Positions 2,274-49,622 of a DNA stretch of 64,000 nucleotides are shown in pieces. A program made the translations under genes and the position numbers. Under the pieces are notes generated by a model. That model did no database searches, was not told the origin of the DNA, and worked only from the letters and a program-made list of their open reading frames with translations. Each line of letters begins with the position of its first letter. The stretch's first letter is position 1. Origin of the DNA: Mesostigma viride (Eukaryota > Streptophyta > Mesostigmatophyceae > Mesostigmatales > Mesostigmataceae); assembly GCA_009746045.1 (NCBI GenBank), contig RPFO01000225.1, forward strand, positions 979,090 through 1,043,089. The letters are read 5' to 3'.

Positions 2274-3754
2274 GATGGATGGATGACATGGACAGATGGA
2301 TGGATGGATGGCTGGCTGGATGGACGGACGGACGGATGGGCGGGCGGGCGGGCGGGCGGGCGGCGCGGGCGGGCGGGCGGGCGGGCGGGCGGGCGGGCGG
2401 ACGGGACGGACGGACGGACGGACGGACGGACGGACGGACGGACGGACGGACGGACGGACGGACGGGCGGGCGGGCGGGCGGGCGGGCGGGCGGACGGACG
2501 GACGGACGGACGGACGGACGGACGGACGGACGGACGGACGGACGGACGGACGGACGGACGGACGGACGGACGGACGGACGGACGGACGGACGGACGGACG
2601 GACGGACGGACGGACGGACGGACGGACGGACGGACGGACGGACGGACGGACGGACGGACGGACGGACGGACGGACGGACGGACGGACGGACGGACGGACG
2701 GACGGACGGACGGACGGACGGACGGACGGACGGACGGACGGACGGACGGACGGACGGACGGACGGACGGACGGACGGACGGACGGACGGACGGACGGACG
2801 GACGGACGGACGGACGGACGGACGGACGGACGGACGGACGGACGGACGGACGGACGGACGGACGGACGGACGGACGGACGGACGGACGGACGGACGGACG
2901 GACGGACGGACGGACGGACGGACGGACGGACGGACGGACGGACGGACGGACGGACGGACGGACGGACGGACGGACGAACGGATGGATGGATGGATGGATG
3001 GATGGATGGATGGATGGATGGATGGATGGATGGATGGATGGATGGATGGATGGATGGATGGATGGATGGATGGATGGATGGATGGATGGATGGATGGATG
3101 GATGGATGGATGGATGGATGGATGGATGGATGGATGGATGGATGGATGGATGGATGGATGGATGGATGGATGGATGGATGGATGGATGGATGGATGGATG
3201 GATGGATGGATGGATGGATGGATGGATGGATGGATGGATGGATGGATGGATGGATGGATGGATGGATGGATGGATGGATGGATGGATGGATGGATGGATG
3301 GATGGATGGATGGATGGATGGATGGATGGATGGATGGATGGATGGATGGATGGATGGATGGATGGATGGATGGATGGATGGATGGATGGATGGATGGATG
3401 GATGGATGGATGGATGGATGGATGGATGGATGGATGGATGGATGGATGGATGGATGGATGGATGGATGGATGGATGGATGGATGGATGGATGGATGGATG
3501 GATGGATGGATGGATGGATGGATGGATGGATGGATGGATGGATGGATGGATGGATGGATGGATGGATGGATGGATGGATGGATGGATGGATGGATCCATG
3601 GATGGATGGATGGATGGATGGATGGATGGATGGATGGATGGATGGATGGATGGATGGATGGATGGATGGATGGATGGATGGATGGATGGATGGATGGATG
3701 GATGGATGGATGGATGGATGGATGGATGGATGGATGGATGGATGGATGGATGGA
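2274..3754. repeat. Compound tetranucleotide array (GGGC/GGAC then GGAT)
   Basis: A nearly perfect 4-bp satellite of about 1.5 kb. It opens with mixed GGAT, GGAC and GGGC units (2274-2500), continues as GGAC for about 120 units (to about 2977), then switches at 2975-2981 to GGAT for about 190 units. The only clear flaw in the second half is a ggatccatgg near 3593-3601. Because 4 and 3 share no factor, all six frames stay open, which produces long artefactual [12 protein letters not shown] and DGRT peptides. A small array of the same motifs lies at 19514-19583. Confidence 0.97.
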
Positions 3755-8300: not shown

Positions 8301-8689
8301 TCGGCTTCCAAACATGGGCACCACGAATGTGGAGTTGATAAATGATGGCTTTATGTTGCTATGTGCCGCTCCCACGGGCAGACGGACAAACCATGGCTTG
8401 TGATAATGAATTCAGCCTTCTCACCGGTTGCCTGCAACGTCAACAAGGGATTACAGGTCAAGATAGCAGTTGGGAGGACGACTTGAGGCATCGCAACTCT
8501 GCTCTTGCGCGCAGCAGCATGCAAGCTTGCCGTGACTTCATGCCTAGCAATCGGTCACATGCAAAATCGTACCAAACGTGATGTCCAACTGAGCCACACC
8601 AAGCCAAGTTGCAGTGGTGAGAGGCACCCATTTGCACCAAAAGCTTAGTGACGTGGCCATGTAGGCCTACGTGATGGGCTCACACCCGC

Positions 8690-8997
8690 CAATCCAATAG
8701 ATTTAGAGTATTTAGTCGTGCTTTGCCCATGCAGAGAGTTACTCTCTGCTGAGATGCCATGCTCCAGCTATAGCCTAGCCATAATCATCTTCCACCCCAT
8801 GTCATGCAGGCCTTCTTTTAGGTATGATCCATCATGGTGGTGTAGGTGCACATTGTGCACCCAGAGTAGGTGGCAGCTTACATCCTCTACCTGCAGGTTG
8901 TAGCCCAGACTGTATTAAAAACCCATAAGCCCCTTCTCAGGGATATGTGTTACATATGCTCCCCAGTCCCTACGGAGCCATGTTCTTCATTAATTAA
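8690..8997 (+). mobile_element. Old subfamily B retroelement 3' end
   Basis: This is a diverged version of the 3' UTR found at 49640-50038, with the same order of motifs (gagagttactctctgc, ccttctcaggg, then a weak stem-loop near 8965-8980) and a short attaattaatt tail at 8989-8999. It lies just beyond the 3' end of RAD51D. Confidence 0.6.
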
Positions 8998-9037
8998 TTT
9001 GCACCAAAACATGAGCAATCGTGCACCAAACAACAGC

Positions 9038-12000
9038 CTATTGTGCACAAGCCTTTGGTCTTGTCCAGCCACGACCGTGCAACGCAGGCAACCTGCATAG
9101 GTCCACACTCCGGAGGATGGATACCACCGCCGGCACCATGCATGCAGCTCCAGACACACCCATAGAGACAAGGAAAACAAGGGCACTTGCCGTAAGGCTG
9201 TGGCGCGTGACCTCGGCGGTGCATGTGCCGGATGCCAGGTCCTTGCTTAGCTGCAGTTGGTGCTGCTGGCCTCGCGCCCATGTGGCGCCCAGCGCGGGTT
9301 TCATGCGACCGTCCTTCTCCACCATCTGATTGGTCACCTGCGCGCCCGACAGCCGCAAGAGTGGGAGGCAGCGCGCACAAGAGCAGAGAGCTTAAACATT
9401 CGTCATTGTAACATTAGCAGAGCTCATGGCAAATTGCAAATCAATATTTGACGATAGCAGTAGTACATGAATTTTGGTAAGGAGTCATGCACCACTCACT
9501 ATGCGCACTAGAACAGGCAAAGTGTGCACAGATGACCATGCATGGCCGCACTCACCCGCACTCATGATGCCGGCCTGACATGGATACCTTACGGTTGCGT
9601 ACATGGGTGGTAGAAAGGGGCGTTCATGATCGTGAATCCACTCGCACATGCCCCTGCACAAGTTTCAGGAAGATCATGCGCCAGGCCATGCTCGGGCAGC
9701 ACCTGGCAGCAGCCCAAGAGCAACACCACACATTGCCAGACATGAACAAGCCACCATCATCTTCGTCTACCATTGCGACCCACCCTGTCAGCTCCAACCA
9801 TGGGCAGCTTATCCTGTGTACCGGAATGCTAGAAGCGGCAGGGAACTGACATGCGGCCAGGTGGTGCAGCATGCCACCACACCAGCATACGACGAGCAGG
9901 CCCTTGCAAAACACTAGGCCAAGCGGAGGGGCGTGCGCGTGCGGGGTCATGCACCAGCACGTGATGCCATAAACTCAGTTGCTTGCAAACACGAGCACAC
10001 AGGGCTTGGGCGCGGGGCCATGCATCCGCATGGAATGGGGGAACCCATACAACCATCACTACCATCACTACACCTTGCTACACAGAGCAGAGGGCGTTCT
10101 CTACACGCGTGCGCGTACCAGCACGGCCAGGCGGTGCCGCTTGGCCATACACGCGTGCGCGTACCAGCACGGCCAGGCGGTGCCGCTTGGCCAGGAACTT
10201 GAGCGCGTGGCCGAGGGCATTCATGAGCGCGAGGCCTGGAGCGGTGACAGGGGGCAGCGGCAAGTATGTGGCCAGGGTCAGGGGGCGGCAGCGTGACCGC
10301 AAGACCCAAGGGACACAGGTGTGGGGGTCGACAGGCCTGGTGAATCCCTGCCAGCAGCGCTCCTGTGTGTTTCCTTGGACGGGCCAGGGCCACCATTTAC
10401 GCAATGTGGTGGGTTCTGTGCTCGAAAGACTGGCATGATGGCGACACGAAAATGTTTAGTGAGTATGCAAAACTTCGGCAACCCTCTCCTACTGCCATCC
10501 ACATACCCCCTCCCTTTGTGCCATCTGCCTCACCTTATGCCTGCAACCCTCTCCTACTGCCATCCGCATCAACCCCCTGCCTTTGTGCCATCTGCCTCAC
10601 CTTATGCCTGCGACCCTCTCCTACTGCCATCCGCCTCACCCCCCCCTGTGCCATCTGCGTCACCTTATACCTGCAAACCTCACCAACCACCATCTGCCTC
10701 ACCTTGTGCGTTGGGCACGCCCAACACGGGCTTGAGCACGGCTGACGCGGAGTCGATGACAAGCAGCGTGGAGAGGTGGACGGGGTTGGCCTGCACCCGC
10801 CGTGTCATGGGGCGGGGATGGGGGGGGGGAGCCGATATGTGAACAAAGCACATGGTACCACGACTCCTATCACATGGTGAAATCAAATATCGCGGATGCT
10901 GCCAATGCAACAGGTCAGTGCAGTACCTTCATGCCCGGTCAAGCGCCCGTGCTTATAAACCGCATGCCGTGCGCACAACTGGCACGCCAATGGAGAGATC
11001 GGGCCCATTACAACAACAAGCCCCGCAGGTGCCAGCAAAGCTTCAAGGGGGGGGGGTTCATGCAGCAACGGGGGCATTGCCAGCAGACGTGGCACGGACG
11101 TGTGCGAACCGCGTCTCCAGGCGCATGAAAGCGCACCAAGTGTCGCGATGCCCCGACAAAAGCTGCCCCCATCATCCGAGGACCGCAGAGGGCGTGCGTT
11201 GTGCTAGCGGCCTCAACGCCTGATAGCGGACACCGAGGCAAACTGCCTTCCCACCCAGGTATCTGCGCCCCATTGCGTGTGTATGGGAGGGAGGGCGGCC
11301 CATGGGTGTGCGGATCCAAAATATCATCTGCCATCAAGGACTTGAAGAGGAGGCATGGGCCGCGTGTCCACACCGTGGCCTGCGTGCCGCACGCCAACCC
11401 GCTGGCTCTGGTGCACGTGCCCACCTGCTCCTGCATCTTCATCGCCAGCCACTCCACCACACCCAGCAGCGAGGGCGCGTCGAACGCGTGCAGCACCGCC
11501 ACGCGCTTAAGGGCATCCGACAAGGCCTCCCGCGGCGCCGCCACCTGAGGGCACATGAGGGGGGGTGGGGGGCGGGGGCAGGGGGCGGGGGGCGGGGGGC
11601 GGGGGGCGGGGGGGGGGGCGGGCAGGGCACGCCATGGTAGAGTGCACACTATTTTTACTGCAGACTTTTGAAGAACTATCAGGCTTTTGCGCCGGCGAAA
11701 ACCTGAAAAGCAAGTAGACATGTCTGGCATGCTTCTAGCAAACGCGTGTACTTGGACGGTCGCAGAAGCCGTGGGCTGCATCCCGTCACTGCAACAGCAA
11801 GGTGCCACACGCCCGCTGCAACCAGACAGTGTGAGGCAGCGACGACATTACTTGCTGTTTCTTGGCATTAGACCTTAAGGTTAGCATTGAAATGCAAGGC
11901 ACTCTATGAACAGGGATAAAAGATAGAACACATTTGTAGCAGTGCATATTTTACAGGCAAAAACTACAGGCGAACTCATCACCTTCCCTCCTTCCTCTTC

Positions 12001-15000
12001 ATAGCTCTCTCGGGACCAGGGGGTCCGAGGGGTAGTGTGTGCCGCAATATTCCCACCAAAGTTACTCAAGCCGATCTGCATGCACGTCACCGCATGTGCA
12101 GCGAGCTTCAGAAACTACTAAACCTAGCCACGGCTCACGAGATTACGATCTCACAAGCTGCTGAATCTAGTGAAACTTGCGAATGCTCCACGAGCTTATA
12201 CAGACAGCAACAGCCGCGTCTGCACGTGCGTGTTAGCCTAGGCCACAGGCAGGCAGGCAGACAACGACCTGCCCATTGGCATCTCCGGCCGCCCATGATG
12301 GCTGCCGGCCACCGTCACCTCCCCCAGGGTTTCCACCCACTGGTGCCTGTGCCAGGTGCCTACAGCGTGTAGAAAAAGACTGGCAACCGTGCCACATAAT
12401 TCAAAAAAACTAGACACCATCCCAATTGGCTTTCATGCACTACCAGCACCACCCATGCACAAGGCACGCACCTGAGGGTCCCTGGCCCGCAGCATGTGCC
12501 GGCACATGAGTGAGAGGCGCTGGGGGCTGAAGGTGCCGCATGTGTCGACGAACACCACACGCGCCGTGTCATGGGACGTCACTGCACTGGCAGCCGCGCT
12601 GAACACCACCTGTCAAGCCGTGGATGATTGTCACGGGGTGTCGGGTACGAGTGAGGCACGGCATCGATGGAGGGCGCGGTCGCTTGTGTGCCGGTACCGA
12701 TGGACACCCACGTGAATGCATGCCATCTAGCACACATGCAGCACACGCATGAATGCCAAGCAGTGTCCCGTGCAGCACGCACAGGATTGAATGTACCTGA
12801 GAGTATCCACGCAGCCGCTTCAACGAGCGTTGCACATGCATCAACCGCACACAGACAAGAACAGGAAGGAACAAGGGGCAGTCACTCGTGGGAAATGGAC
12901 GCGGCCGTCCCCCTGGTGGCCGGGTCGCCACCGCGCCGCCCGCAGATGGGCCAACCGTGATCACGGGGATGACGTGAACGGTGGTAGAAGGCCTGCCATG
13001 AGTGCGCCATACTAGGTGTGCCAATAGGCGTGCCATGAGCAGGCGAGCCAGGGAGAATGGGCACCATCAAATAACCCAACAGGGGCCCACCCTTGGCATC
13101 CCCCAACATCGGATCCCTGGAATCGCCGGTCCGACAGGCCCAAACCAACGGGTAGGCCCCTGGCTTCGCGCTTAACCCTTAGTCCGCTGACCCATTTTTG
13201 GCACTTTCATACCCCTGAAAATAAAAAAATTCATAACTCCCAGGCCACAACTCCAAATACCCCCAGCCAAGATGCTAGGAGTATCTACACTTCAAGGGCT
13301 TTCAGACTATGCATTAATACCTTGGCTCTATCAAAGCATTTGGATGATAGCTCTACTCAAAGTCGGCCAAAAGACGATCCTTTTTTCCCAAGGAAAAGTC
13401 TACCCCCCCCTAGCTTCCCAGGTAGGGTGGGGAATCTCAATACCAACATTGGACAACTTCGTTGGATAGTCCAATGGTGGTTTCCTTGGGTCAGACCACC
13501 CGGATGACCCATTAGACCCATACAAGGTGCTCATTTACGTGTGTGGGTTACGCGCGCGTAAATAGCCATCTATGACATGCAATACAAGAATGCATTATAA
13601 CAAGCTATAAAAGATTGCCAAAGGTGCTGGAATACAAACATGTTGCCTACCTGCATTAACGAAATGACATGCTCCAAAGAAATGCCATAAACTGGTCACT
13701 TTGAGGGCTAATACCGCTCTTTACAGCAGGCATGGAAGCTTGCTGAAAGGTGCACTAATAAGCTCGTCAAATATAATGCATGGGAGACGTATTCCGCTGC
13801 AAAGGACACGCAAACACGTTGCCGTACCCGGCTCGTTCATGTCCTGCCCGGATTCCACTGGCTGGGACCCTCATATCTCACACATACCGTTGCTTTACAG
13901 GCATAGGTCGCCATAGCCGCATCATGCATGCATCCTTTATGATTACCAGGTTGATGCTGCGTTCAAAGATTACCAATAAACGCGTCCGCATTCCCAGCAA
14001 ACGCATCAGCGGACATCCCGTACCAAATGTGGATGCTTGGGCTGGCGCAGACTGCCCGGCCATGAGGATAAAATGGAAATATGATAAGCGATTACTCATC
14101 TGGCACTGAGTACACTGTGTCACGACCAAGAAGGCAGTATTTTTCCACCTGAATTTTCCCAATCCTACCAGTTTGGCCATGCCTGACCTACGAAAATCAC
14201 GCATCATCATTCTGAGCAACATTCTAAACCGTTTCTAGCCGCGAGACGCAAAATCTCCCTGATAACGGCACGTTGGCAGCCATATCTCGTTGCGCGCGCG
14301 CGAGTGAAAATTTCCCGCCAAAGTCACGTGACCCCCTATGATTACAGCCCTATAATTACCAGGCTATGGCGGATATTACCCCCAAACCTATGCATCACCT
14401 TCGTCCCTAAGTGTTCCCGGACCCACCGGACAACTGTCCACCGTCACAAGTGGCGTGGCGCTCTCGGCGCGGCGCGAAATTCGACCGTTAGTCAACCCCC
14501 CCGACAGGTCGGGGGGGTAGCGGACTATGGGTTAAGGATATCAAAGTCATATTTGAGCCCTGGATTGGCTCCCTACCTACAAGGTCGCAGCACTGGTCGG
14601 TCGGACCCATTCTTAAAGGTGAAGCTAGGTGTGTTGAGCGACCGGGCTGCGCTACAAGGCAGAGGCATAGCGCGGTAACTACCAAATCTTTGAAGCGACG
14701 ACGGTCATGTTGGGTCGTACGGGGCACTTTGTACCCTGGTGAGGGGTACACCCATGTACCCTGATTGGCACACGTGAGGAGGGCTCAGACACGCCCCATG
14801 CAGCGCAGCTGCGATGGTGGCACGAGCACAAAGCAGCGCCGGTTGCTGGTCGGTGCATGCTGACATGTTCAGGCCGAATTCCTATGTTTCGTGTCCAGCA
14901 TCGCCCTGGGCACATGGTCCATCCACATGCAGTAGCACCCACCCGCCTACCTGTGTCTTGGCTCCCCACCCACCTACCTGCTCCCCACCCGCCTACCTGC

Positions 15001-18000
15001 GTGTTGGCTCCCCACCCGCCTACCTGCGTGTTGGCTCCCCACCCGCCTACCTGCGTCTTGGCTCCCCACCCGCCTACCTGCGTCTTGGCTCCCCACCCGC
15101 CTACCTGCGTCTTGGCTCCCCACCCGCCTACCTGCGTCTTGGCTCCCCACCCGCCTACCTGCGTCTTGGCTCCCCACCCGCCTACCTGTGTCTTGGCTCC
15201 CCACCCACCTACCTGCGTCTTGGCTCCCCACCCGCCTACCTGCGTCTTGGCTCCCCACCCGCCTACCTGCGTGTTGGCTCCCCACCCGCCTACCTGCGTG
15301 TTGGCTCCCCACCCGCCTACCTGCGTCTTGGCTCCCCACCCGCCTACCTGCGTCTTGGCTCCCCACCCGCCTACCTGTGTCTTGGCTCCCCACCCACCTA
15401 CCTGCGTCTTGGCTCCCCACCCGCCTACCTGTGTCTTGGCTCCCCACCCGCCTACCTGCGTCTTGGCTCCCCACCCGCCTACCTGCGTGTTGGCTCCCCA
15501 CCCGCCTACCTGTGTCTTGGCTCCCCACCCGCCTACCTGCGTCTTGGCTCCCCACCCGCCTACCTGCGTCTTGGCTCCCCACCCGCCTACCTGCGTCTTG
15601 GCTCCCCACCCGCCTACCTGTGTCTTGGCTCCCCACCCGCCTACCTGCGTCTTGGCTCCCCACCCGCCTACCTGTGTCTTGGCTCCCCACCCACCTACCT
15701 GTGTCTTGGCTCCCCACCCGCCTACCTGCTCCCCACCCGCCTACCTGCGTCTTGGCTCCCCACCCACCTACCTGCTCCCCACCCGCCTACCTGCGTCTTG
15801 GCTCCCCACCCGCCTACCTGTGTCTTGGCTCCCCACCCGCCTACCTGCGTCTTGGCTCCCCACCCGCCTACCTGTGTCTTGGCTCCCCACCCACCTACCT
15901 GTGTCTTGGCTCCCCACCCGCCTACCTGCTCCCCACCCGCCTACCTGTGTCTTGGCTCCCCACCCGCCTACCTGCGTCTTGGCTCCCCACCCGCCTACCT
16001 GTGTCTTGGCTCCCCACCCGCCTACCTGCGTCTTGGCTCCCCACCCGCCTACCTGTGTCTTGGCTCCCCACCCGCCTACCTGCGTCTTGGCTCCCCACCC
16101 GCCTACCTACGTCTTGGCTCCCCACCCGCCTACCTGCGTCTTGGCTCCCCACCCGCCTACCTGTGTCTTGGCTCCCCACCCGCCTACCTGCGTCTTGGCT
16201 CCCCACCCGCCTACCTGTGTCTTGGCTCCCCACCCGCCTACCTGCGTCTTGGCTCCCCACCCGCCTACCTGCGTCTTGGCTCCCCACCCGCCTACCTGCG
16301 TCTTGGCTCCCCACCCGCCTACCTGTGTCTTGGCTCCCCACCCGCCTACCTGTGTCTTGGCTCCCCACCCGCCTACCTGCGTCTTGGCTCCCCACCCGCC
16401 TACCTGTGTCTTGGCTCCCCACCCGCCTACCTGCGTCTTGGCTCCCCACCCGCCTACCTGTGTCTTGGCTCCCCACCCACCTACCTGTGTCTTGGCTCCC
16501 CACCCGCCTACCTGCTCCCCACCCGCCTACCTGTGTCTTGGCTCCCCACCCGCCTACCTGCGTCTTGGCTCCCCACCCGCCTACCTGTGTCTTGGCTCCC
16601 CACCCGCCTACCTGCGTCTTGGCTCCCCACCCGCCTACCTGTGTCTTGGCTCCCCACCCGCCTACCTGCGTCTTGGCTCCCCACCCGCCTACCTGCGTCT
16701 TGGCTCCCCACCCGCCTACCTGCGTCTTGGCTCCCCACCCGCCTACCTGTGTCTTGGCTCCCCACCCGCCTACCTGTGTCTTGGCTCCCCACCCGCCTAC
16801 CTGCGTCTTGGCTCCCCACCCGCCTACCTGTGTCTTGGCTCCCCACCCGCCTACCTGCGTCTTGGCTCCCCACCCGCCTACCTGCGTCTTGGCTCCCCAC
16901 CCGCCTACCTGTGTCTTGGCTCCCCACCCGCCTACCTGTGTCTTGGCTCCCCACCCGCCTACCTGTGTCTTGGCTCCCCACCCGCCTACCTGCGTCTTGG
17001 CTCCCCACCCGCCTACCTGCTCCCCACCCGCCTACCTGTGTCTTGGCTCCCCACCCGCCTACCTGCGTCTTGGCTCCCCACCCGCCTACCTGCGTCTTGG
17101 CTCCCCACCCGCCTACCTGCTCCCCACCCGCCTACCTGTGTCTTGGCTCCCCACCCGCCTACCTGTGTCTTGGCTCCCCACCCGCCTACCTGCGTCTTGG
17201 CTCCCCACCCGCCTACCTGTGTCTTGGCTCCCCACCCGCCTACCTGCTCCCCACCCGCCTACCTGTGTCTTGGCTCCCCACCCGCCTACCTGCGTCTTGG
17301 CTCCCCACCCGCCTACCTGCGTCTTGGCTCCCCACCCGCCTACCTGCGTCTTGGCTCCCCACCCGCCTACCTGCGTCTTGGCTCCCCACCCGCCTACCTG
17401 TGTCTTGGCTCCCCACCCGCCTACCTGTGTCTTGGCTCCCCACCCGCCTACCTGCGTCTTGGCTCCCCACCCGCCTACCTGTGTCTTGGCTCCCCACCCG
17501 CCTACCTGTGTCTTGGCTCCCCACCCGCCTACCTGCGTCTTGGCTCCCCACCCGCCTACCTGTGTCTTGGCTGCCCACCCGCCTACCTGCGTCTTGGCTC
17601 CCCACCCGCCTACCTGTGTCTTGGCTCCCCACCCGCCTACCTGCGTCTTGGCTCCCCACCCGCCTACCTGTGTCTTGGCTCCCCACCCGCCTACCTGTGT
17701 CTTGGCTCCCCACCCGCCTACCTGTGTCTTGGCTCCCCACCCGCCTACCTGTGTCTTGGCTCCCCACCCGCCTACCTGCGTCTTGGCTCCCCACCCGCCT
17801 ACCTGTGTCTTGGCTCCCCACCCGCCTACCTGTGTCTTGGCTCCCCACCCACCTACCTGCGTCTTGGCTCCCCACCCGCCTACCTGTGTCTTGGCTCCCC
17901 ACCCACCTACCTGCGTCTTGGCTCCCCACCCGCCTACCTGTGTCTTGGCTCCCCACCCGCCTACCTGCGTCTTGGCTCCCCACCCGCCTACCTGCGTCTT

Positions 18001-20881
18001 GGCTCCCCACCCGCCTACCTGTGTCTTGGCTCCCCACCCGCCTACCTGCGTCTTGGCTCCCCACCCGCCTACCTGTGTCTTGGCTCCCCACCCGCCTACC
18101 TGCGTCTTGGCTCCCCACCCGCCTACCTGTGTCTTGGCTCCCCACCCGCCTACCTGTGTCTTGGCTCCCCACCCGCCTACCTGTGTCTTGGCTCCCCACC
18201 CGCCTACCTGTGTCTTGGCTCCCCACCCACCTACCTGCGTCTTGGCTCCCCACCCGCCTACCTGTGTCTTGGCTCCCCACCCGCCTACCTGCGTCTTGGC
18301 TCCCCACCCGCCTACCTGTGTCTTGGCTCCCCACCCACCTACCTGCGTCTTGGCTCCCCACCCGCCTACCTGTGTCTTGGCTCCCCACCCGCCTACCTGC
18401 GTCTTGGCTCCCCACCCGCCTACCTGTGTCTTGGCTCCCCACCCGCCTACCTGTGTCTTGGCTCCCCACCCGCCTACCTGCGTCTTGGCTCCCCACCCGC
18501 CTACCTGCGTCTTGGCTCCCCACCCGCCTACCTGTGTCTTGGCTCCCCACCCACCTACCTGCGTCTTGGCTCCCCACCCGCCTACCTGTGTCTTGGCTCC
18601 CCACCCGCCTACCTGTGTCTTGGCTCCCCACCCGCCTACCTGCGTCTTGGCTCCCCACCCGCCTACCTGTGTCTTGGCTCCCCACCCGCCTACCTGTGTC
18701 TTGGCTCCCCACCCGCCTACCTGCTCCCCACCCGCCTACCTGCGTCTTGGCTCCCCACCCGCCTACCTGCGTCTTGGCTCCCCACCCGCCTACCTGCGTC
18801 TTGGCTCCCCACCCGCCTACCTGCGTCTTGGCTCCCCACCCGCCTACCTGCGTCTTTGCTCCCCACCCGCCTACCTGCGTCTTGGCTCCCCACCCACCTA
18901 CCTGCGTCTTGCCCACCGCGGATGTGCCGACCAGCTCAGTGACCACCCCCACGCGCAGCCCACCGCGCAGGAGGGCGTCCAGGCTGCGGGGCCATGAGCG
19001 GGGCACGCAAGGGGTGCATGCAAGGGGGCCACGCAAGGGGGGCACGCAAGGAGGACAATGGAGGACACCGCACGGCTGAATGCCAAGTGAGCCACAGGGA
19101 GAGGGGCAGCATATGGCTTGGTGGGGGAAATGGGTATGGGGGACAAGAGAAGCCACCGGCGCGGGGTGAAGATGTAGGGTGCGGCTTCCCACAGGGTCCA
19201 AGAGCGGGTACAGGGGAAATCGCATGGCAGACAGGCACACACACATGTGCCTGCCTGCGCATTCAACAGGATGGGAAGCACTACTCCGAAGAGAAGGCTT
19301 GGAGGTGGGGGCGACCCTTGGAGCCACACAAGCAACCTGCCATCCTGGCGCCAGCAGTCCTTGTACACCACTTAGGCCTGGCCAGAACTAGCCAGGGTTT
19401 GGCCATGCCATAGTATGCAGCACGGTATGGTCTAGACCAGCCCGCCTGATGCTTTCTTGGCGCTGGAATCTCAAGCACCGTGGCAAGCCATGGCTGGCAT
19501 CCGGCAATACACGATGGACGGACGGACGGGTAGACGGACGGACGGACGGACGGACGGACAGGCGGGCAGGCGGGCGGGCGGATGGAGTTACCACGGTGAT
19601 CGTAACTAATAGATTGCATCATGGAAATCAACACACGCACAATGACACCTGACTGGCGGCTTATGTGGGTCCCACATCCCTTACCTGGCACACCCTGTGG
19701 AGACCGCATGCCCCATGCACGCCGCACTGCCTCCTGGCGCATCCGTTAGGGCCCCATCACCGCCGGTGGCAGAAGCGCCCGCGAGCGGCGTGGGCACAAG
19801 CAGCACATAGTTGCTGGTCAGGTAGCGGGAGACAGCATCCAGCATCTGCGCGGGAGGAGAGGGATGCAGGGAGGCATGGGGGAACGCGGCGCCGCGAGCA
19901 GAGAGGAGCGGACAAGAGCCGGCAAATCGGGAGCTCATTGACGCGGCATGCACGCAAAGAGACCACTTAGCAAAACTCCGTCCAACGGTTACAGGAAAAA
20001 AACGTAGGAATATGTAGGATGCCCGGCACCTGTTGATAGGGGACTGGATGGGCACCGCGGGTCCGGCCCCTCATCCCCACATCACTCACACATGGAAGCC
20101 GAGGCAAGCCCACCAGTCCCGCCAGGGTACACAGGTGCCTCTGCGCAGGGAAGTAAACCGTTCCTATTACTTACTGTGGAGTGGATGAGGTATGTTCCTA
20201 GCCATCCGTTGCTGCAACTGTGTGCTTGATTCCCTACCTCCTTCACGGCGGCGGCGCTCTCATGGCCAGGTGCCTGCAGCATGGAGGTATCCCAGAGGAT
20301 GTAGTCCTCCACTGCGGGCATGGGGCACGGTAGGTATGCATAACAAGCATGGGGGAAAATAAAATAAACCAGAATCATGTGTCTTGACAGCATGAGGTGT
20401 CCCACAGGATGTGATGCTCGATTCACTGCAGGCATTACACACGGATACAGACACCACAACACACACAGTGTGAGCATACGGCGATAAGGTCAAGGATTAG
20501 CTTCATGAGGGATAGACATGGCTAAGCTGCACATCTCAGTATGCACAGAGACCTTGGATGCCATTACGCCAACACCATAACGTAGAATGGAATTGCAATT
20601 GCATGATTCGCTTGAACTTAATACGAGTTCAGAACCTTGCTTCAACTTCTCATTAGTAAAAAGGTATATGCACGGCAAAAAACGAATCCTCTGTAACTTG
20701 CGATCGCTGATTTGATTTGGTCAGCAGCAGGACAGTTTTCGGCAGGCGAGAAACCGCAGTGCAGCTGTTTTCTCGCAAGTTCAAGAAGTTTTACACCTCG
20801 TGGGAACTCACCGGTATGCACTCCATGGCGCGCAAGTTGCAGCACTACCTCAGGAGCAAGTCCTGTGGCGGACAAGTTCAT
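9038..20881 (-). CDS. RAD51D: DNA repair recombinase RAD51D
   Basis: RAD51D is a RAD51-paralogue ATPase of the BCDX2 complex, which acts in the nucleus in homologous recombination. Exons on the minus strand: 20881-20812, 20311-20238, 19845-19685, 18983-18902, 12609-12472, 11544-11425, 10790-10703, 10235-10165, and 9337 to 9191 or 9038. All joins keep phase. Landmarks in order: HGVHTVEDYILWD (N-terminal domain), LDALLRGG, Walker A GTSAVGKTQ, RVVFVDTCGTFSPQRL, RVAVLHAFDAPSLLG, Walker B TLLVIDSASAV, ALMNALGHALKFLAKRH, then VTNQMVEKDGRMKPALGATW. These follow plant RAD51D closely and fit RAD51B and XRCC3 less well. The last exon is uncertain. It either reads to the TAG at 9040-9038 (367 residues), or leaves through a GC donor at 9190 into an exon I cannot find (at least 317 residues; the family is about 320-330). 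Confidence 0.9.
10102..10193 (-). repeat. 46-bp perfect tandem duplication over the exon 8 splice donor
   Basis: Copies 10102-10147 and 10148-10193 are identical. Each contains the last 29 bases of RAD51D exon 8 and the first 17 of the intron, including the CTG|GTACGC donor. The upstream donor (after 10165) keeps the frame; using the second would add 46 bases and shift it. Confidence 0.9.
10481..10715 (-). repeat. About 65-bp tandem repeat seeded at the exon 7 splice donor
   Basis: Roughly three and a half units lie in RAD51D intron 7 and run up to the exon 7 border. On the minus strand each contains a version of AAG|GTGAGGCAGATGG, which is the real junction at 10703/10702. Units drift by small changes and the last one is shorter. 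Confidence 0.8.
11552..11630 (+). repeat. Poly-G rich tract in RAD51D intron 5
   Basis: Runs of up to nine G separated by single C or A lie just upstream of exon 6 on the coding strand, where they read as a C-rich pyrimidine tract before the acceptor. The G strand could fold as a quadruplex. Confidence 0.7.
13176..14531. mobile_element. Short piggyBac-like element in RAD51D intron 4
   Basis: A 1,356-bp stretch is bounded by TTAA at both ends (13172-13175 and 14532-14535). Inverted ends begin CCCTTAGTCCGCT on the left and CCCATAGTCCGCT on the right (12 of 13 match). TTAA targets with ends starting CCC are the hallmark of piggyBac transposons. No long transposase frame is present, so it would be a non-autonomous or decayed copy. 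The right end carries a 10-bp perfect hairpin of C7GAC/GTCG7 at 14496-14517. Confidence 0.65.
14940..18902 (-). repeat. 27-bp minisatellite, about 145 copies, in RAD51D intron 4
   Basis: On the minus strand each unit carries AAGACGCAG followed by GTAGGCGGGTGGGGAGCC. The first nine bases equal the last three codons of exon 4 (the Lys-Thr-Gln of Walker A) and the next bases equal the splice donor. Units vary mainly by ACGCAG/ACACAG and GGCGGG/GGTGGG. Nine or so short units lack 8 bp (19-bp units) and shift the reading frame. In frame with exon 4 the array reads VGGWGAKTQ repeats. It fills most of intron 4, whose acceptor lies at 12610. Confidence 0.95.
19514..19583 (+). repeat. Short GGAC/GGGC tetranucleotide array
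   Basis: About 17 units of the same motifs as the large array at 2274-3754, inside RAD51D intron 3. It shows that the motif arises repeatedly in this genome. Confidence 0.9.
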
Positions 20882-21833: not shown

Positions 21834-24800
21834 ATGAAAGCAACAAGCCTCATCCCAGGTAGTTCTTGGGGAACTAGGGTTAGAGCGCAGTCAGCCGAAG
21901 ACCTTGACCAATTTCTGCAAAGCTGCCGGACGCAATTCAATGCTCTGCATTCTAGCCCTGCATCGAAACCCAAGGTAAAGGAGCTCAGCCCGAGAGACGC
22001 GCAGACCCCTGAGACGCCAACAATGGATACTATGTCCGAACAAGCACTCTCGGCAACGGTGAGTCCCATGCTTTACCCGCCTATTTGAAATTATTGTCCT
22101 CCGTACTTACAGAGACTTGCCAAGGTAGAGACTTGCCAAGGTGCCGTCAGGTCATTGCTTCGAGCAAGGCGTGACCATGGTTTAAACATGCGCATAAATA
22201 ATATGCGTTGGAATTTTATTTTGCAGTTGCCTGAAAATCCAGGCCCTCGCACTGGCGGATCCAGAGAAGCCAGCGAGGACCATCCTGCTGAATCCAAAAG
22301 CCAGACGTCGCCTCTACCACCGCTGCATCCCCAGTCCCATAGCCTGGGCGGGAGCTCTGAGGAAGTCGTTATCCTGCGACGACGTCTGACGTCATGCCAG
22401 GTGCGTGCGATGGAGATAAAAGAGGCTTTAAATATATGATTTACATCGTGGTACAGGATATGCGACTTCCAATGGTTCTACCGTGACCATGCATTTCCGC
22501 ATGATATTCATTCCTCTTGGTGATTGCTTTCAGCTTTCGGCTACAACGACTGGCTCTCCCCCTGAGCTTCAGAACGACCCTATCTGTTTTCGTCAGTAAT
22601 GCAGTTTCCCCGGTATCCGACTTCCGCATTAACCACTTCCTCCTCCCCCCACCCCCCCCACCCCCATGCTTGCTCCTCAGAACGCGTGGGACAAGGACCG
22701 GCAAGAGCTGGCGCAAGTGAAAAAGGAACTGCGGGAGCTGCAGGAGCAAGTGTCACCCGGTGGGCCCTGGCTACAGGCCAGGGCGTCTGTCCAGGATGCA
22801 GAGACTTGCCCTAGTGCGGAGGGCCTAGCCTTTGGTTTCCCAGACCCCGACGCATTGCCCTCCTGTGCTCGCCCACCTTCTGCAGCATCCGGCACCAGCC
22901 CTACGCCCGCCTCCTCCCCCGCAGCCGACGCGGTCATCGTGGCGGGGCTCCTGTCCAAGGTGGATATGGCCAGGGAGGAGGCGGCCTCCCTGCGCTCGCT
23001 GCTGGCGGCCGCAGTTGACAGGGAGAAGCGGCTGATGGACCAGCTGGCCAGCACGCAGGAGGAGGCAGCGGCGCGCAACGCCCAGGTGGCGGCGCTGCAG
23101 GCGGCGATGGAGGCGGCGCACGTGGGGGCGGAACGCTACGCGCAGGTGGGCATGTGCGCGTGCGCTAAATCGCGACATCTTCTCTCCCCCTTGTGCCGGC
23201 ATGGTGGGTGTCTTGCCGGCTTCCCTCGGCGTCTTCTCTCCCCCTTGTGCCGGCATGGTGGGTGTCTTGCCGGCTTCCCGCGACGTCTTCTCTCCCCGTT
23301 GTGCCGGCATGGTGGGTGTCTTGCCGGCTTCCCGCGACACCCCGGTTCTCCCCATGTGTAGCCGCGCGTGCGACCACCGCATCCCATCCCTCCTGTCCCT
23401 TGTGTGCGCCCACCATGAGATTGCGTATGCTGGCCCACCCCTGACCCGTGGCATGTCGGCGTGCATGCATGACCATGGACCACATCACTCACACACGGCA
23501 CACAGGACATGAGCACGCGCCACGCCCGTGAAGTGGATGCATGCAAGCAGCAGGCAGCGGCTGCCGAGGCGGCGTTGGCAGAGGCAACGGACCAGCACCG
23601 GGGCCAGGTGGCGCAGCTGCAGCAGCGCGTGGCGGAGCTGGAGGAGCAGCTGCAGGCCAGCGAGGTGAGGCTAGTACGCGGGTGGGCCGGGCAATGAGGA
23701 ATGCATGAAGGATGTCCCAAATGAAACGCCCGCTCTGCCTCCACAGCTTCAATTTGCGGCACCGCACCCAGGCAGTTTGCACCCGCATGACCTCGCCCAC
23801 CCAGCCTCCACCTCACGGCATCTGCCTCCGCCCATGCCCTTCCTCCCATGATGCCCATCGCTGCCCCTATGCCCCCCCCATGCATCAAGCGTGCAAGCCG
23901 TGCCGCAGTTACCCCTCCGCCCAGGACCTGGTCATGAGGGCAGGCCACGCGCCCCCATGGTATGCCGCCCGGCACTTGTTCTGTGCAGTGCCTGCCCATT
24001 GTGATGGCATGCCAGAGTGGATTGCCCACCTGTGCCCGCGTTTTTTTGTGACCATGCATGCTAGTGCTGCGCTGTCACACATCATGCTCCCCCCCCATGC
24101 ACAGGAGAGCGGTGCCGAACAAAGCCAGCGGGCAGCAGCGGCGCACGTGGAGGTGGAGAGGCTCACGGCGGAGCTGGCCACGTCCCATGGACACCTGTTG
24201 CGTCTGCAGAGCAGCAACGAGGTCATGGAGTCGCACTGCAACCAGGTGGGATGCGCCGTTGGGTAGCGGGCAATCATACTAGGCAGCCAGCCAGAAGCCC
24301 TGCCTTGACGTGAGGCATCCTTTGCGTTTCCTGATCTAGAGCTGGGTAAGGTGACCCCCCGGAAGGCAAGGCCCTTGCGAAGCCTAGCATATGAATCAGC
24401 ACCACGATGGGAAGGGCTAATCACAGCTTTCTGCTAGCACCCTTTAGTTTTGATCGTTGTCCAGTGCACCCACCCCTTCCCTGCCCTTGCTAGTTCCTCA
24501 GCCACTGCCTGCCTCACAACGCACCCATGGGCCATGGCACCTGGGGACGTGACGGCAGCAAACCACCATCCCCTGCAAATCTCTTCCTGCGATCGGGTGC
24601 CAGGGCTTGCTGATGTAATGGTGATCGGGTGCCAGCGCTTGCTAGTGTAATGATGATCGGGTGCCCCTGCGCTGGCGGTGCCCTCTCTACGCGCGCAGGC
24701 GGTGGAGGAGGTGTCGCGTCTGCGAGGGGAGCTGCACGTGCTGTCCGCGCGCCTCAGCAGCCGCGCCAGCAGCACCAAGCAGCTCGAGGTGGGGATGGGC

Positions 24801-27800
24801 GCTGCACACGGGGAGCCACGCAACCATGTAGAGGGCAGATCGATAGCGACCACGTACCGTGCGGGCACCTTGAGTGGCGACAGACGCTGGTATTACGTCG
24901 CATGCACCCTTGCAAGGACAACCAGGAACACGTGGAATGTTGCTGGTCGTTGATGGTAGCCAGGGGAGGTGTTAAACATGCGCTTCGACATGAGAACAAG
25001 GGGGCCAGATCCTGAGACTCAGGTGCGCACGCACCAGAGCTCGGCCTGCTGTTCCCACGCAAGAGAATGGGTCGTGTTTCTGTGTGGGCTGCCAATGTCC
25101 GAGGTGTACGTACCATAACTGTTTGAATGTGCTGTGGTGGTTTGAGATGGATAGCTGGGTGGGTGGCCTGACCTGTGGGTGGGTACAGACAGGTGGATGG
25201 GGGCATCCGTAGGTACATAGTGGGTGGAGATGATGCGATATGCGGGTAAGTGGTGGGGAGTTTGTCGAAATTGCGGGGGGGGAATGAGGGGGCTGCATGC
25301 ACGTCTGCATTAGAGGGTGGGGGCGAGGCAGGCATACCGTTTGATGAATGGGTGGAGAGTTGGATGCATGGCCGGCCGCGCCAGCGGGCAGGCGAGCTAT
25401 GTGTGGCTGCATATCTTAGGGGGTGATGCATGGTCGGTGCATGACAGCGCAGTGTGCACATGTAGGGATGCCCAGCAAGTTCTTTCCGTTGTTAGTGTAA
25501 GTTTGTGATAGGGCACGGAGGCCATGGAGAAGTGCGGAAACCGTCACGGCCCCAGATCATGCTGGCATGCTGGTGAACGGCGCTCCCCCCATCGAATGTT
25601 TTGTGTATCGTTTCCCTACCTGCGCCCCGCCTGCGTCCTGGGAACGACCCGTTGCCCCCGCATGCGCAGCTTCAAGTGCAAGATGCACGCGAGGTGGTGG
25701 AGGAGAACGCGCTGCTGCGGGAGCAGGTGCGCGCGCTGACCCACGAGTGCAGCGACCGCATGGCGCAGGTGGCGGCCATGCAGGCTGCACTCGCCTCGCT
25801 GCTGCGCGCTGTGCAGGAGCAGGCGCCGCCCACACCGCAGAGGCAGGGCGCGGGCGATGCAGCGACGGGAGCCCCGCGCGTCGGTCTAGCAGCCGGCACG
25901 GATCGCGCAGCCAGTGAGGGTGATGTGCTGGCGCCGCGCACGCCGCTGCAGAACGCCACCAACCGCATGCTGGCCCCCGCATCGCCTGCATCCACCATGG
26001 GCTCCGCCACCAAGCCAGCCATGCAGAGGGTGGACGCGCCGACACCGACAGCGAGGCAGGAAGGCGACGGCCCTGGGTCCGATGAGGTGACGTCCAGCGG
26101 CAACAAGGCGGCACCCATGCGGGCCACAACGCCGGCCAAGCTGTCTGCTGCGCGTGTGGACACGGCGGCGGGGCTGCACCCGCGTGAGCTCACGGAAACG
26201 TTGCTGGTGGCGTTTGACCGCATGCGCGCGCAGTGGGCGGAGGCGCTGGGGGAGTCGCGGCGCCAGGTGGCGGAGCTGGAGGCCTCGCTGGTGCGTGCGC
26301 AAGCAGAGCACGCGCGTGCGCTGGCGCGGCAGCAGGAACTGGTGGAGGCGGTGGACGCGCAGCGGTGCGGCGCGGAGCAGGAGACGGGGCGTGCCCAGCG
26401 CCGGCAGGCGGAGGCCGAGGACGCCCTCGCGCAGAGGGAGAGGGAGCTGGCGTGGACGATCGCCAAGGGGGCCAGCGTCATGCATGAGGTGAGCGAGGGT
26501 GGCCAGCGTCATGCATGGGGAGCGCGAGGGGGTGTGCGCTGGTGTTTTTGTAAGTTGTGTGTTTTTGTAAGTTGTGTGGATAGGGGGGGGGCTATCAGTG
26601 GCTGGTGTGATCAGTATGGATTTACATGAGCCTGTGGCGAAGGATGCTGCATGCGGGGCGAGGATTGGGGATGCAGTAATGATGTGTGAGGTGGCGAGGT
26701 TATCCCATGCTACAGGATGCAGAGGCTTCCTTTGATGCCATCTGTCGGGTTCCCAACACATCTTCTTGGCGATCGGAGGACCATCTGACTCTGGCAGCAC
26801 ACGACGGTGTCTCTTCCCCCCTGACCACCCACGGACAGTTGCATGAGTCGCAGCAGGAGAATCAGCGGCTTGCGCGGGCGCTGGAGGAAGCCCAGCAGGT
26901 ATGCTTGTGGCCGCGCGCCACAGATGTGGGCCAGCTTGCAGCACGTCTTTTTCCTTAGCGCTGGAGGGAGGCTTGCTTATCAATGCTTTGAGCGATTTCT
27001 TCTACTAGGAGACGGTTGTCTAGTTGTGCTATGCCATTATGATTGCTCTCAGACTGTTACGTTAGGAATGCCTTTTGCATGGGGACCGCTGGCCAGGCCA
27101 GCCAGGGCATTCCTGTTGGAGTTTGCCCATGGACTTCAATGCGTGCACCTAGGTGCCATGGCTTGCTTGAGGGATGTATGCTCACGCATTGTCGGATGCC
27201 AGTAAACTCTTTTTAGAAGCGGGACCCCCCACGCCACTCACAGACACGCATTAGTTGGCATGACAGTGCCGATAATGTGACACGCCATGCTGCCCTGCTG
27301 TCATCGCCGGCAGTTATGTCCAGAGCCATGGCCACTGGGGAGCGGTGTGGGGAACAGGAGAGGGGAGCGGTGCGAGGGAGCGGTGAGGGGAACAGGAGAG
27401 CAGGAGTTACGGGAACACATCATAACCCGACAGTTTATTATCCTAGTCTTTTTTTTTTTCATGGACGTCTTATGGTATCACACGCATTCTCCCAACACCT
27501 GGCAGGTCGCCGCCGCGGCCACTAGGGAGCAGCAGCAGCTTGACACAATGTCGCGCCACCTGGAAGAACAGGAGCGCGCGCAAGAGGCCTCCCGCAAAGA
27601 GCTGCAGAGGTAAGGAGGCGCACGCCCCACTGCAGCTGTGATGTCAGCGAGTTTGGCACAATTGCGCATTGCCCTCGCGCCAGCGGTTGTCCTGTCTGCA
27701 TGCCATGCTTCACCCACGCCATGAAGCGCCACTTGATTGTAGATGTGGCACAGTACTACTTAGTCCGGCTGCAGCCTTGCAGGCTCTGAAGCAGTGTTTA

Positions 27801-30800
27801 AGGTTTCCGCACCACCAGGTGCTGGCAAACATGAGACCTGTTGGCCTTATGCATGGTGTGGTCGGATGCCGTGGGCTCCTCTGCTCAGCGGTAAGGACAC
27901 GCCGCCTCCAAACGCTGTATGTTGCAGGCACTTTGGGCCATGATCCGTTGTAAGATGTAAAGGTGCATGCCCAGACACGGTGCCCCCACTGCCCTGCCTG
28001 CTAATGCAAGCACCCACACCTTGTCTGGCCCTGCCTGCTGCAGGGTGAGCGCGCGCTACCGCGATGCCTGGGCGCGGCTGTGCCAGTGGAGGGAGGCGTT
28101 TGCGCACGTGGCCATGCCGGCTGCTGGGACATATGGTGATGGCAGCCGGCCGGACGGGGGGCATCGGTCACCACTGGTTGATGACATGGAGCCGCCCATG
28201 TCGCCCGTTGCCAACAATGGCCGTGTGGACAACAGCGACACGCCCGCGGTGCCCTCGGAGGCTGCATCCCCCTCGGTCAGGGAGGAGGGCCTGCTGCTCG
28301 CGTTGCAGGAGAGACAAGTCCTGATGGTGCGTGCTTGTGGGTGGTGCTGGGGCGTTCCTGTCGCTGTTGGGTGTGACTAGAAGCGAGCGAGGCATGACCG
28401 ATGCTCATGTCGCTACCTTCAGGGCACTCAGCGAGGAGAGGCTTTACCTGCCACGAACAAGTCAGTCAACTATATTGCCACTTGAGGAACAAGATGCCTT
28501 CAGGAACACTGGAGGAACAAGATGCCCTGGACACACTGGTCGACTGTGCTTGTGGGGTGGCTGGCGTGTGTGGATTACCCCTGGAAGGCATGTATCTCTC
28601 TTGCGCTCGCGAGTCTCAACGCTACCTCGGGTGCATCCACCCCAGCTGCAACTCGGTCACCCCCCAGCCACACACATTGCTGATTTCTCGTGCTGCGCGC
28701 TATATCTGGGACCATAGAGAGGTTATACACATGAGCCGAGCCCACCTGTGCCTGCCAAGTTTATGGCACTCTAGGTTCCTGGCGAGCTCAACCTGGTTAT
28801 CTGGTTTGCTCACACCCTGCTGCCTTGTTTGGCTCCCACTTGCCTACCTGGGCTCCTGGCCCTCGCTCCGTCTTCTACAGGACCAGCAGCAAGGGCTGAC
28901 GACAGCGCTGGCATCCGCCACAGAAGCCCTGGCCACCCATGCCGAAGACTCAGTGGCCCTCCAAGACCTGCGTGCGGCGCATGCGGACCTGCAGCGCGTA
29001 CACCGAGCGCTGCAAGAGGAGCACGCACAAGCGTGTGAGCAGCTGCGGGCGGTGGCAGAAGAGTTTGGGTCTGCGCGGGAGCTGCTGGCCGCGCAGGAGG
29101 CGGAGGTGGCGGCGCTGCACGAGGCCATGAGGGGCGCGGAGCAAGAGCTGACGACCGCACGGGAGGATGCGGTTGGGCAGGAGGGTTATCTGGGGGCCAA
29201 GCTAGCGGAGCTGGAGGCAGCGCGTGCCAAGCTGGCGGAGGTGACGGCGGACAGGGACAGTGCGGAGAGAGCGCTCACCAGTGCGGCGCGCGAGGGAAGC
29301 CGCCTGCGTGCACTGCTGCAGGAGAATGAGGCAGCACTCGGGCATGAGCTGGCACGTGTGCGCAGAGAGATGTGTGAGGCGGGGGAGAGGGCGGCGCGGG
29401 AGGTGGGCGCGGCAATGGAGGCGGGGGAGGCGGACGTGCGTGGCGTGAGGCAGCAGGTGGAGGAAATGAGGGCCGAGGTGGCAGCCATGGCGGAGGAGCT
29501 GGCCGCTGTGCTTGCAAATGCAGCGGTGGCATCCGCGGCTGCCTCCCAGCGGGGCAGCACCGCTGCTGACCTGGTTGGTACTAATGTGGTGGAGGGGGCA
29601 CCCAACCCGCCACCCACCATCGCATTCGTGCCCACCCCACACCAACTTTTGGATGTGGTGGCCGTGTTGGGGGGCGTCTCGGTGCGCATGGCCGGCCTGC
29701 TGGGCATGTGGTGCGGTCCAGCGGGGGAAACCTCCAGTCCTGTGGGTGACGCCTGCGCTGATGAGGGCAGCGCACAGCTGGCATCCGCAACCTCATCAAT
29801 GGCTCCCCATGCGCAGCTGCTGCCCGATGCGTCCCCGACCAGTGCCACGCTGCTGCAGCCCGATACTGCTGCGGTGATAGTGGCCACCGTGCCATGGGAG
29901 GGCATGGCATGGGAGGATGGGATACGCCAGGTACACGAGTTGGCAGGCACACTGCAGGGGCAGGTGGCGTCGCTGGCCGCCGCGGTAATGAAGGACCGGC
30001 AGGCAGCGCAGGCGCTGGCATCCGAGGCGGAGGCGTTGCGTGCGCAGGCGGTGGAGAGGGAGGCGGTGGCGGCGCGCGATCTGCAGGTGGCCGCCGCACA
30101 GGTGGAGGCGGCGCGGCAAGCGGAGGAGGAGGCGGCGCAGGAGGCGGCGCGGGCGGCCGAAGAACACGCGGACACACTCATGGCACGCGAGCAGCATGTG
30201 AGTGCGGTGGCTGGCAACACGCTCGCGTTGGGGCCGCTGCTGTACATCGATGGGCAGGTGTGGGCATTGGTACTTGTTCAGCGAAGCTGTGACTGGTTTG
30301 CGCTAGTTGGTGGGTTGTGGGTTGTGCGAGGAATGCTCCAAGGACTGATCCACAGGCTGGGGGGATAGGGGAAGATGGCCTGCGCGTGGTATGTGCGTTT
30401 GTCAGCGGACAACTAGCGCGTGTGGCAGCACAGTCGCTTGGACGAACCATCCATGGCAGCCAGGCAGTCACCTGTGTAGCTCTCTTTGAGGTCCTGCCAC
30501 TTGAGCGCACAGGTGGCAGGTGGATGCGCGCGGCACCTGTACTGGCATGCTGGCAGGCAGGCAGGTGGCATGGCCGACAGGTAGGTCATAATGTGGGTAG
30601 GGGCCTGCAACAAGAACAACATCTCATGTTTGCTGCGGGCGTTCTTTCCTCATGGTCACACCTGCTTCTGCTGCGGGCGGCTTGCTGGATCGTCTCATGG
30701 CCACTCGCGCATTCAGCACACGCTGCTGCTCAAGCGCTACGTGGCGTCGCTAGCAGCGGCGCAGGAGCAGGTGCAGGCGCTGCACGCCGCCGCCAGCGAT

Positions 30801-48595: not shown

Positions 48596-48612
48596 GAATA
48601 TATATACCAGTA

Positions 48613-49622
48613 AGGCTTGCATCACTCCCCGGACAGGAGAACTTTTGCGGATGACTGTAGGTGTAAGTTGGCGATGCCATGGTAACCGGAGACGTCCGTC
48701 CTATAGTCAGCAAAATTGGTGCGAGAGGTCCCCAGTTCGATTCCGGTCGGATTCATTTGCAGATCGCGTTTTCCGCGTTTTCCGCGGCCCGGCACTGAAC
48801 GCAAAGGTTTTCACCTTTGCGGAGTGTCTGATCAGAATATACGCTTGGCTGATTTCGATAGTACCGGCTACGCCCCCTTCTAAAGAAGGATTCAGCCGTG
48901 TTCAGCCCGTCTCACGGTGCGAGACTGAACAAGTCTCGCGTGCAGACACGTGTGTAGTACTCCTACACACAGATCTCGAGTGATTTATCTAGTACCAAAT
49001 CCGAAAGGCTTGCATCACTCCCCGGACAGGAGAACTTTTGCGGATGACTGTAGGTGTAAGTTGGCGATGCCATGGTAACCGGAGACGTCCGTCCTATAGT
49101 CAGCAAAATTGGTGCGAGAGGTCCCCAGTTCGATTCCGGTCGGATTCATTTGCAGATCGCGTTTTCCGCGTTTTCCGCGGCCCGGCACTGAACGCAAAGG
49201 TTTTCACCTTTGCGGAGTGTCTGATCAGAATATACGCTTGGCTGATTTCGATAGTACCGGCTACGCCCCCTTCTAAAGAAGGATTCAGCCGTGTTCAGCC
49301 CGTCTCACGGTGCGAGACTGAACAAGTCTCGCGTGCAGACACGTGTGTAGTACTCCTACACACAGATCTCGAGTGATTTATCTAGTACCAAATCCGAAAG
49401 GCTTGCATCACTCCCCGGACAGGAGAACTTTTGCGGATGACTGTAGGTGTAAGTTGGCGATGCCATGGTAACCGGAGACGTCCGTCCTATAGTCAGCAAA
49501 ATTGGTGCGAGAGGTCCCCAGTTCGATTCCGGTCGGATTCATTTGCAGATCGCGTTTTCCGCGTTTTCCGCGGCCCGGCACTGAACGCAAAGGTTTTCAC
49601 CTTTGCGGAGTGTCTGATCAGA
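48613..49622 (+). mobile_element. Terminally redundant 393-bp-unit element with 9-bp TSD
   Basis: Two identical 393-bp units (48613-49005, 49006-49398) and a 224-bp partial unit (49399-49622) form an R-U-R-U-R structure. The direct repeat ataccagta flanks it at 48604-48612 and 49623-49631, and the uninterrupted site is seen in the sister element at 51701-51710. No coding frame is plausible. R contains an exact RNA polymerase III box B core (gttcgattcc) in a tRNA-like context, and a 9-bp hairpin (cgcaaaggt/acctttgcg). U contains an 8-bp perfect hairpin (gtgtgtag/ctacacac) and a two-part hairpin (gttca...gtctc/gagac tgaac). I found no hammerhead core. It could be a dimerised SINE or a circular-RNA-derived element. 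Confidence 0.85.

Follow-up and report, generated by a model that had tools for sequence, protein, structure and literature searches.

What brings a minisatellite made of splice donors to a position directly behind the ATP-binding exon of a RAD51 paralog, and which of its donors would the spliceosome take? Both questions are raised by a stretch of 64,000 nucleotides from Mesostigma viride (contig RPFO01000225.1, positions 979,090 to 1,043,089), here called the window, to which all positions refer unless stated otherwise. We consider it probable (about 0.75) that the array is a splice-donor minisatellite which stems from the exon 4/intron 4 border of RAD51D, comprises some 150 copies, is tolerated in the intron and leaves the first donor mostly in use. 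This is the likeliest reading of the genomic sequence, on which it rests, and donor use is a prediction within it. The copies would be tolerated because they are located in an intron, and the array is probably near-neutral.

The host gene was identified first of all by its product (Table 1). Exons 1 to 10, all on the minus strand, join into a 1032-nt open frame, and the introns have GT-AG borders except for intron 9 with GC-AG. The product matches the Pfam family Rad51 (PF08423) above the cut-off (8.1e-16) and contains a Rad51-type ATPase core with a Walker A motif, GTSAVGKTQ, which is encoded in exon 4. The three top matches in the PDB are RAD51 homolog 4, i.e. RAD51D (2.3e-28), and the next RAD51 paralog is RAD51C (8e-12). 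Judged by this ranking of matches, without a tree, RAD51D is the RAD51 paralog to which the product is most closely related. Pfam and PDB matches thus bear out the gene assignment made in a preliminary description of this DNA. RAD51D was found at a single locus in the genome, and further matches to the Rad51 family lie on C1424, C1913, C224, C47 and C2011. Thirty matches to chlorophyll a/b-binding proteins in this genome mark the organism as a photosynthetic eukaryote.

Table 1. Positions of RAD51D, its splice-donor array and further junction repeats within the window
Feature	Position	Strand	Characteristics and evidence
RAD51D gene	8351..20881	-	10 exons, 343 aa; gene model, Pfam, PDB match
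Exon 4 of RAD51D	18902..18983	-	Walker A, ends with GKTQ; last 10 bases are the exon part of the array unit
Intron 4 of RAD51D	12610..18901	-	6292 nt, array at its start; gene model
Exon 5 of RAD51D	12472..12609	-	138 nt, both ends phase 0; gene model
Splice-donor minisatellite	14938..18911	-	27-bp units GTAGGCGGGTGGGGAGCCAAGACGCAG for the most part, plus nine of 19 bp; TRF, unit count
46-bp tandem duplication with identical copies, spanning the exon 8 donor and 29 exon bases	10102..10193	-	TRF 2 copies, 100%; alignment score 78
67-bp array, 3.5 copies, from exon 7 donor	10478..10703	-	TRF 87%; alignment score 28, 7 exon bases
Diverged upstream copy of exon 2 acceptor and exon start	20338..20450 (approximate)	-	alignment score 28
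Diverged 31-bp duplication, 2.2 copies, across donor 26488 of neighbouring gene	26466..26532	+	TRF, alignment, exon call

The remainder of the window contains a GGAC tetranucleotide repeat of 359 copies (2318-3754, TRF) and a 393-bp unit present in 2.6 copies at 100% (48612-49625, TRF). Long predicted exons with coiled-coil-like composition form a chain on the plus strand (22681-40701), perhaps a single very large gene; the one exon of this chain that was tested has no Pfam match. A long open frame is present twice, as diverged copies in opposite orientation, at 47514-48287 (plus) and 52467-53306 (minus), the latter without a match in Pfam, and the pair possibly represents a mobile or duplicated gene. 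Small predicted exons recur around 45-55 kb, and a gene with a FAD_binding_4 domain (Pfam, 2.7e-16) occupies 55868-57138 on the minus strand.

TRF describes the array with a period of 27, 149.9 copies and 93% matches. When it is cut at every GTAGG, 138 units of 27 bp, nine units of 19 bp and one 23/31 pair are obtained, the latter being a single unit with a change from CAG to TAG. The copies read CAG/GTAGG on the minus strand (the slash marks the splice border); CAGGTAGG, which matches the exon 4 donor, is counted 149 times and GGTAGG 150 times. The long series of donors noted in the preliminary description is therefore real, while its figure of about 145 was slightly too low. Among the 138 27-mers, variation is confined to five of the 27 columns, mainly to positions -4 (G in 73 units and A in 65) and +6 (C in 125 and T in 13). 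The donor core (-3 to +5) shows no variation, a comparison that has no power to reveal selection on the core since only these five columns vary at all. Exon-like GACGCAG is present in all of the first six units after exon 4, five AACACGCAG units are restricted to the distal part, and the unit types are interspersed. Blocks of up to 12 units are repeated, a length reached in 4 of 500 shuffles. The unit matches 140 times in the window (0 in 100 shuffles), and these account for all of the 140 matches in the 439.9-Mb genome, where none was found elsewhere with up to two mismatches. An introner-like dispersed element was rejected on the grounds of this single locus. On the plus strand, the array is crossed by three open frames (14743-19076) with lengths between 1353 and 1433 aa, which exist only because the unit lacks a stop on that strand. 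One extra CAG/GTAGGC, equal to the array donor in nine bases, is located in intron 4 at 13650 (minus), 1.3 kb past the array, probably by chance.

The composition of the unit points at its source. Exon 4 ends with GGTGGG-CAAGACGCAG and intron 4 starts with GTAGGT-GGGTGGG, while the unit reads GTAGGCGGGTGGG-GAGC-CAAGACGCAG and so consists of 13 intron bases, four extra bases and 10 exon bases. The last partial unit has the same 13 intron bases and is followed by unique intron. From base frequencies, the probability of a chance match over 10 exon bases is about 1e-6. As the unit combines the final 10 bases of exon 4 with the 13 bases that open the intron, the array appears to have grown from the exon-intron border, in support of the tandem duplication of the junction that had been suggested earlier. 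The exon-derived part is one base longer than the nine bases originally given, and the array does not start exactly at the exon border, which was correctly placed at 18902/18901; its homology begins at 18911, 10 bp inside exon 4. We propose that the array began with a tandem duplication of a short piece across this border, for which the probable mechanism is slippage involving the GGTGGG of the Walker A codons and the GGTGGG of the intron. In the simplest case, the first duplication would have spanned the interval between these two copies and added four bases. Further tandem and block duplication would then have expanded the array to about 150 copies, and the repeated blocks indeed suggest that later growth proceeded by block duplication.

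An array of this composition is a member of a kind already known from human ABCA7 and IFI6, that of splice-donor minisatellites: the donor of the adjacent exon forms part of its unit (the 149 CAGGTAGG equal the exon 4 donor), and its start falls at the end of that exon (border 18902/18901, with homology from 18911). The minisatellite of human IFI6 (6-16) is said to have been described by Turri et al. in 1995 as providing several splice donors in one transcript, and reportedly differs from the RAD51D array in copy number, unit and gene. The two are alike as minisatellites with multiple donors, as far as the accessible text on IFI6 goes (PMC4526556), where several splice donors are likewise attributed to the repeat. 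For human ABCA7, the accessible part of the report (PMC5954066) describes a VNTR in intron 18 whose 25-bp unit has the donor GT of exon 18 at its start. The alleles reported there range from about 12 to 427 copies, some 2% of transcripts retain one unit, and exon 19 is skipped in a length-dependent manner. On this basis, the ABCA7 and RAD51D arrays have in common a similar unit size, a position directly behind an exon with whose own donor GT they start, copy numbers that reach hundreds and the vicinity of nucleotide-binding-domain exons. They differ in that one retained 25-bp unit shifts the frame in ABCA7, whereas the first six 27-bp units of RAD51D are in frame, and in that the RAD51D unit includes 10 exon bases while the ABCA7 VNTR is described there as starting with GT. 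Allele lengths and splicing effects have been measured for ABCA7, whereas the RAD51D array is known here from the genome alone. Variable tandem repeats at exon-intron boundaries of human duplicated genes also alter gene structure, but according to the accessible text they form novel introns (PMC2812944), while in RAD51D an intron has been lengthened and its acceptor is situated elsewhere. VNTR6-1 of TERT is comparable as a G-rich intronic minisatellite with many predicted G-quadruplexes and a reported shift in splicing; unlike the RAD51D array it is situated inside intron 6 and away from a splice border, with exon 7 following about 3.5 kb downstream (PMC11830802, accessible part). In yeast, the accessible text of PMC3486850 reports G4-driven instability of GC-rich minisatellites. 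Among the matches listed in the open-licence literature searched, no such array was found in any alga or in RAD51D.

Which donor is likely to be used can be approached by conceptual splicing. An open full frame results from seven of the 150 donor positions, i.e. from the first seven, and the other 143 lead to a stop, which lies inside the array for 87 of them and in a later exon for 56. With donor 1, KTQ is followed by V, and the alignment with human RAD51D has no gap there. If one of donors 2 to 7 were taken, the product would gain between one and six VGGWGAKTQ repeats without loss of frame, just as had been foreseen for later donors, and the anticipated frame shift after a 19-bp unit is found as well, the frame being lost after the first unit of this length and none of the 143 later positions being open. 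Given that only seven donors keep the frame and only donor 1 gives normal RAD51D, we infer that the spliceosome mostly takes the first donor and that the array leaves with the intron. It has to be weighed against this preference that the sequence itself bars none of the copies: compared with 71 called donors, GTAGGT stands at the 66th and GTAGGC at the 76th percentile. Some leakage is predicted by analogy with ABCA7, such that a few per cent of the mRNAs would carry one in-frame VGGWGAKTQ insert; the same analogy predicts length-dependent skipping of exon 5 or reduced expression.

The array might go further and act as a regulator, with its copy number setting the level of productive RAD51D through wrong donors, G-quadruplexes or exon 5 skipping that end in decay or a short isoform. 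The prevalence of donor positions leading to a stop would fit such a role, as would the reduced expression and increased exon skipping that accompany length in ABCA7 (PMC5954066, accessible part). Skipping of exon 5 would leave the RAD51D frame open because both of its ends are in phase 0. A two-layer G4 motif is present in 147 units and the array reaches a G4Hunter score of 1.08, compared to about 0 in two other stretches of RAD51D. In a G4-aware fold of two stretches, 12 of 14 donors are predicted at the start of a two-layer quadruplex; the first donor is as buried there as the others, which counts against the main reading. Still, a three-layer G4 motif is absent from all array units, and the donor core is invariant in a unit with so few variable columns that selection is not visible. 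On balance, we regard regulation by copy number as rather unlikely. Much the same evidence can be read as a generator of isoforms, in which donors 2 to 7 serve the purpose of extending the protein behind Walker A by one to six copies of VGGWGAKTQ, consistent with the full frame kept from these donors and with the exon-like GACGCAG of the first six units past the exon. However, the insert would directly adjoin the ATP-binding loop, the seventh unit breaks the frame, as one would expect without selection to keep it, and in ABCA7 the second donor is reported for about 2% of transcripts (PMC5954066, accessible part), which makes purposeful isoforms very improbable.

Two further explanations are improbable. 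That the copy number was inflated by an assembly artefact is hardly credible, for although it rests on one assembly, the contig spans 1.76 Mb, and copying of one unit would not give interspersed unit types and AACACGCAG units in the distal part only. Equally little probability attaches to intron gain or recursive splicing, in which units acting as acceptor plus donor (AG/GT, present at the border of every full unit) would allow stepwise removal of the array or a new intron by tandem AGGT duplication, a known route of intron gain (PMC3443670, accessible part): the units lack a pyrimidine tract, their acceptors are weak on average (mean 2.9 bits and best 4.7, the median among 70 called acceptors being 7.1), and the acceptor of intron 4 at 12610 is located 2.3 kb past the array, so that the present intron end does not derive from a duplicated copy. 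The weak unit acceptors also favour the splice-donor reading, but the real exon 5 acceptor, with 4.5 bits, is about equal to the best unit acceptor, which tells against it.

The splice-donor minisatellite is not the sole junction repeat in its gene. We found that two more RAD51D donors, those of exons 7 and 8, carry such repeats, and the list in Table 1 includes a duplicated acceptor as well as a duplication in the neighbouring gene. By inspection, three of nine RAD51D donors reside in junction repeats versus two of 88 elsewhere (p 0.005); excluding the main array the ratio is two of eight versus two of 88 (p 0.034), and under the strict coverage rule applied to the 88 it is two of eight with the main array included. 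As both comparisons were made post hoc, they provide weak indications of RAD51D as a hot spot of junction repeats. A 54-bp array of 3.1 copies at 23171-23338 follows donor 23145 of a plus-strand gene at a distance of about 25 bp and does not include it.

A general bias of repeats towards donors was not evident among the 88 called donors outside RAD51D, two of which fall inside tandem repeats as opposed to none of 88 called acceptors, which is about the background rate. Tandem repeats with a period of at least 14 cover 25125 of 244938 sampled bases, or 9964 when only arrays below 1 kb are counted. When exon ends were aligned with the following intron, a score of at least 28 was obtained for six of 95 donors versus 0.15 expected and for one of 94 acceptors versus 0.09, based on the 96 of 183 exons that remained after those scoring below 18 had been dropped and on an exon-calling script partly trained on RAD51D. 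The six donors comprise three from RAD51D, that of the neighbour at 26488, a G-rich one from locus L014 and one at 37204-37350, which was judged to belong to a false exon in a simple repeat.

We also searched the genome for clusters of the donor word CAGGTRRG, occurring three times at a spacing of 16-46 bp. With 3663 matches versus 3840 for the reversed word, there is no genome-wide excess over the latter. Counted by eye among the matches listed for contig C1 up to 12.43 Mb, CAGGTRRG accounts for 18 places, CAGCTRRG for two and the reversed word for one; five places were listed for CTGGTRRG up to 12.36 Mb. Single-word counts outside repeats in the sample were 56, 57, 25 and 28 for the four words compared. 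Among these listed places, the ratio of 18 to two is significant (p 0.0002), and that of 18 to five yields p 0.28 allowing for word frequency. CTGGTRRG does not differ from the donor word in its G-runs, so that the cluster places may be due to G-richness alone.

Sixteen of the 18 places on C1 were fetched with 550-600 bp each, omitting two GGTG-type simple repeats. In 8/16 clusters, a coding stretch with a codon score of at least 14 runs up to the earliest donor word, as it does at 15/59 single CAGGTRRG sites; the excess is not significant (p 0.06, changing to 0.08 with a cut-off of 12 and to 0.26 with one of 8). When the first word of the matched triple is taken instead, the figure is 5/16 (p 0.43). 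TRF detects a tandem array at a coding exon end in five of the 16 (L033, L035, L036, L039 and L044). The array of L035 starts within 3 bp of the exon end and the other four reach into the exon; before the next donor word, 16 exon bases are shared exactly in L036 and 11 in L033, while 13 of 15 agree in L039. L033 encodes polynucleotide phosphorylase (PDB, 1.5e-12) and L039 a Nipped-B-like protein (8e-13); the coding status of L035, L036 and L044 is derived from the codon score only. Junction arrays thus recur in this genome. Given their presence at exon ends of the two identified genes, and in human genes of other function, the special tie to a recombination gene that had been hinted at for the RAD51D array finds no support. 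L029, L030 and L041 are irregular clusters of donor words without a TRF repeat at the exon end, the first two kinase-like by Pfam (L030 below the cut-off). L037 was left out of the count, as an RCC1 exon end is present and the matched triple follows about 390 bp further on. In a different section of C1 (20000-29999, minus), a 46-bp array of 6.6 copies (L011:1141-1444) extends from a coding-looking exon end TTACCAG/GTGCGT with the unit GGACCAG/GTGCGT. L042 (C1:10548650-10549210, plus) contains a 28-bp array with acceptor-like TTCTACTGTTGCAG immediately followed by donor-like GTGAGG in each unit, resembling serial recursive splice sites.

Both the additional junction repeats of RAD51D and the arrays on C1 may be no more than is expected for G-rich donors in a minisatellite-rich genome. 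Extrapolation from five arrays in 16 fetched clusters, located in the first 12.4 Mb of one contig, nevertheless allows the tentative suggestion that the genome carries a whole class of splice-donor minisatellites with 2 to about 150 copies, in which introns of perhaps a hundred or more genes have repeatedly grown by duplication of their borders. If this were true, intron growth and donor choice could be traced as a natural series within one genome.

The RAD51D array itself represents a natural construct, in which about 150 near-identical donors with above-median score stand in series behind one exon. Choice among equal 5' splice sites is otherwise studied with artificial constructs, and a natural case is offered here. 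Together with the smaller cases in the genome (2, 3.5, 5 and 150 copies), it could reveal the way in which introns grow out of their own borders. With it, a type of array familiar from ABCA7 and human disease is extended to a photosynthetic eukaryote.
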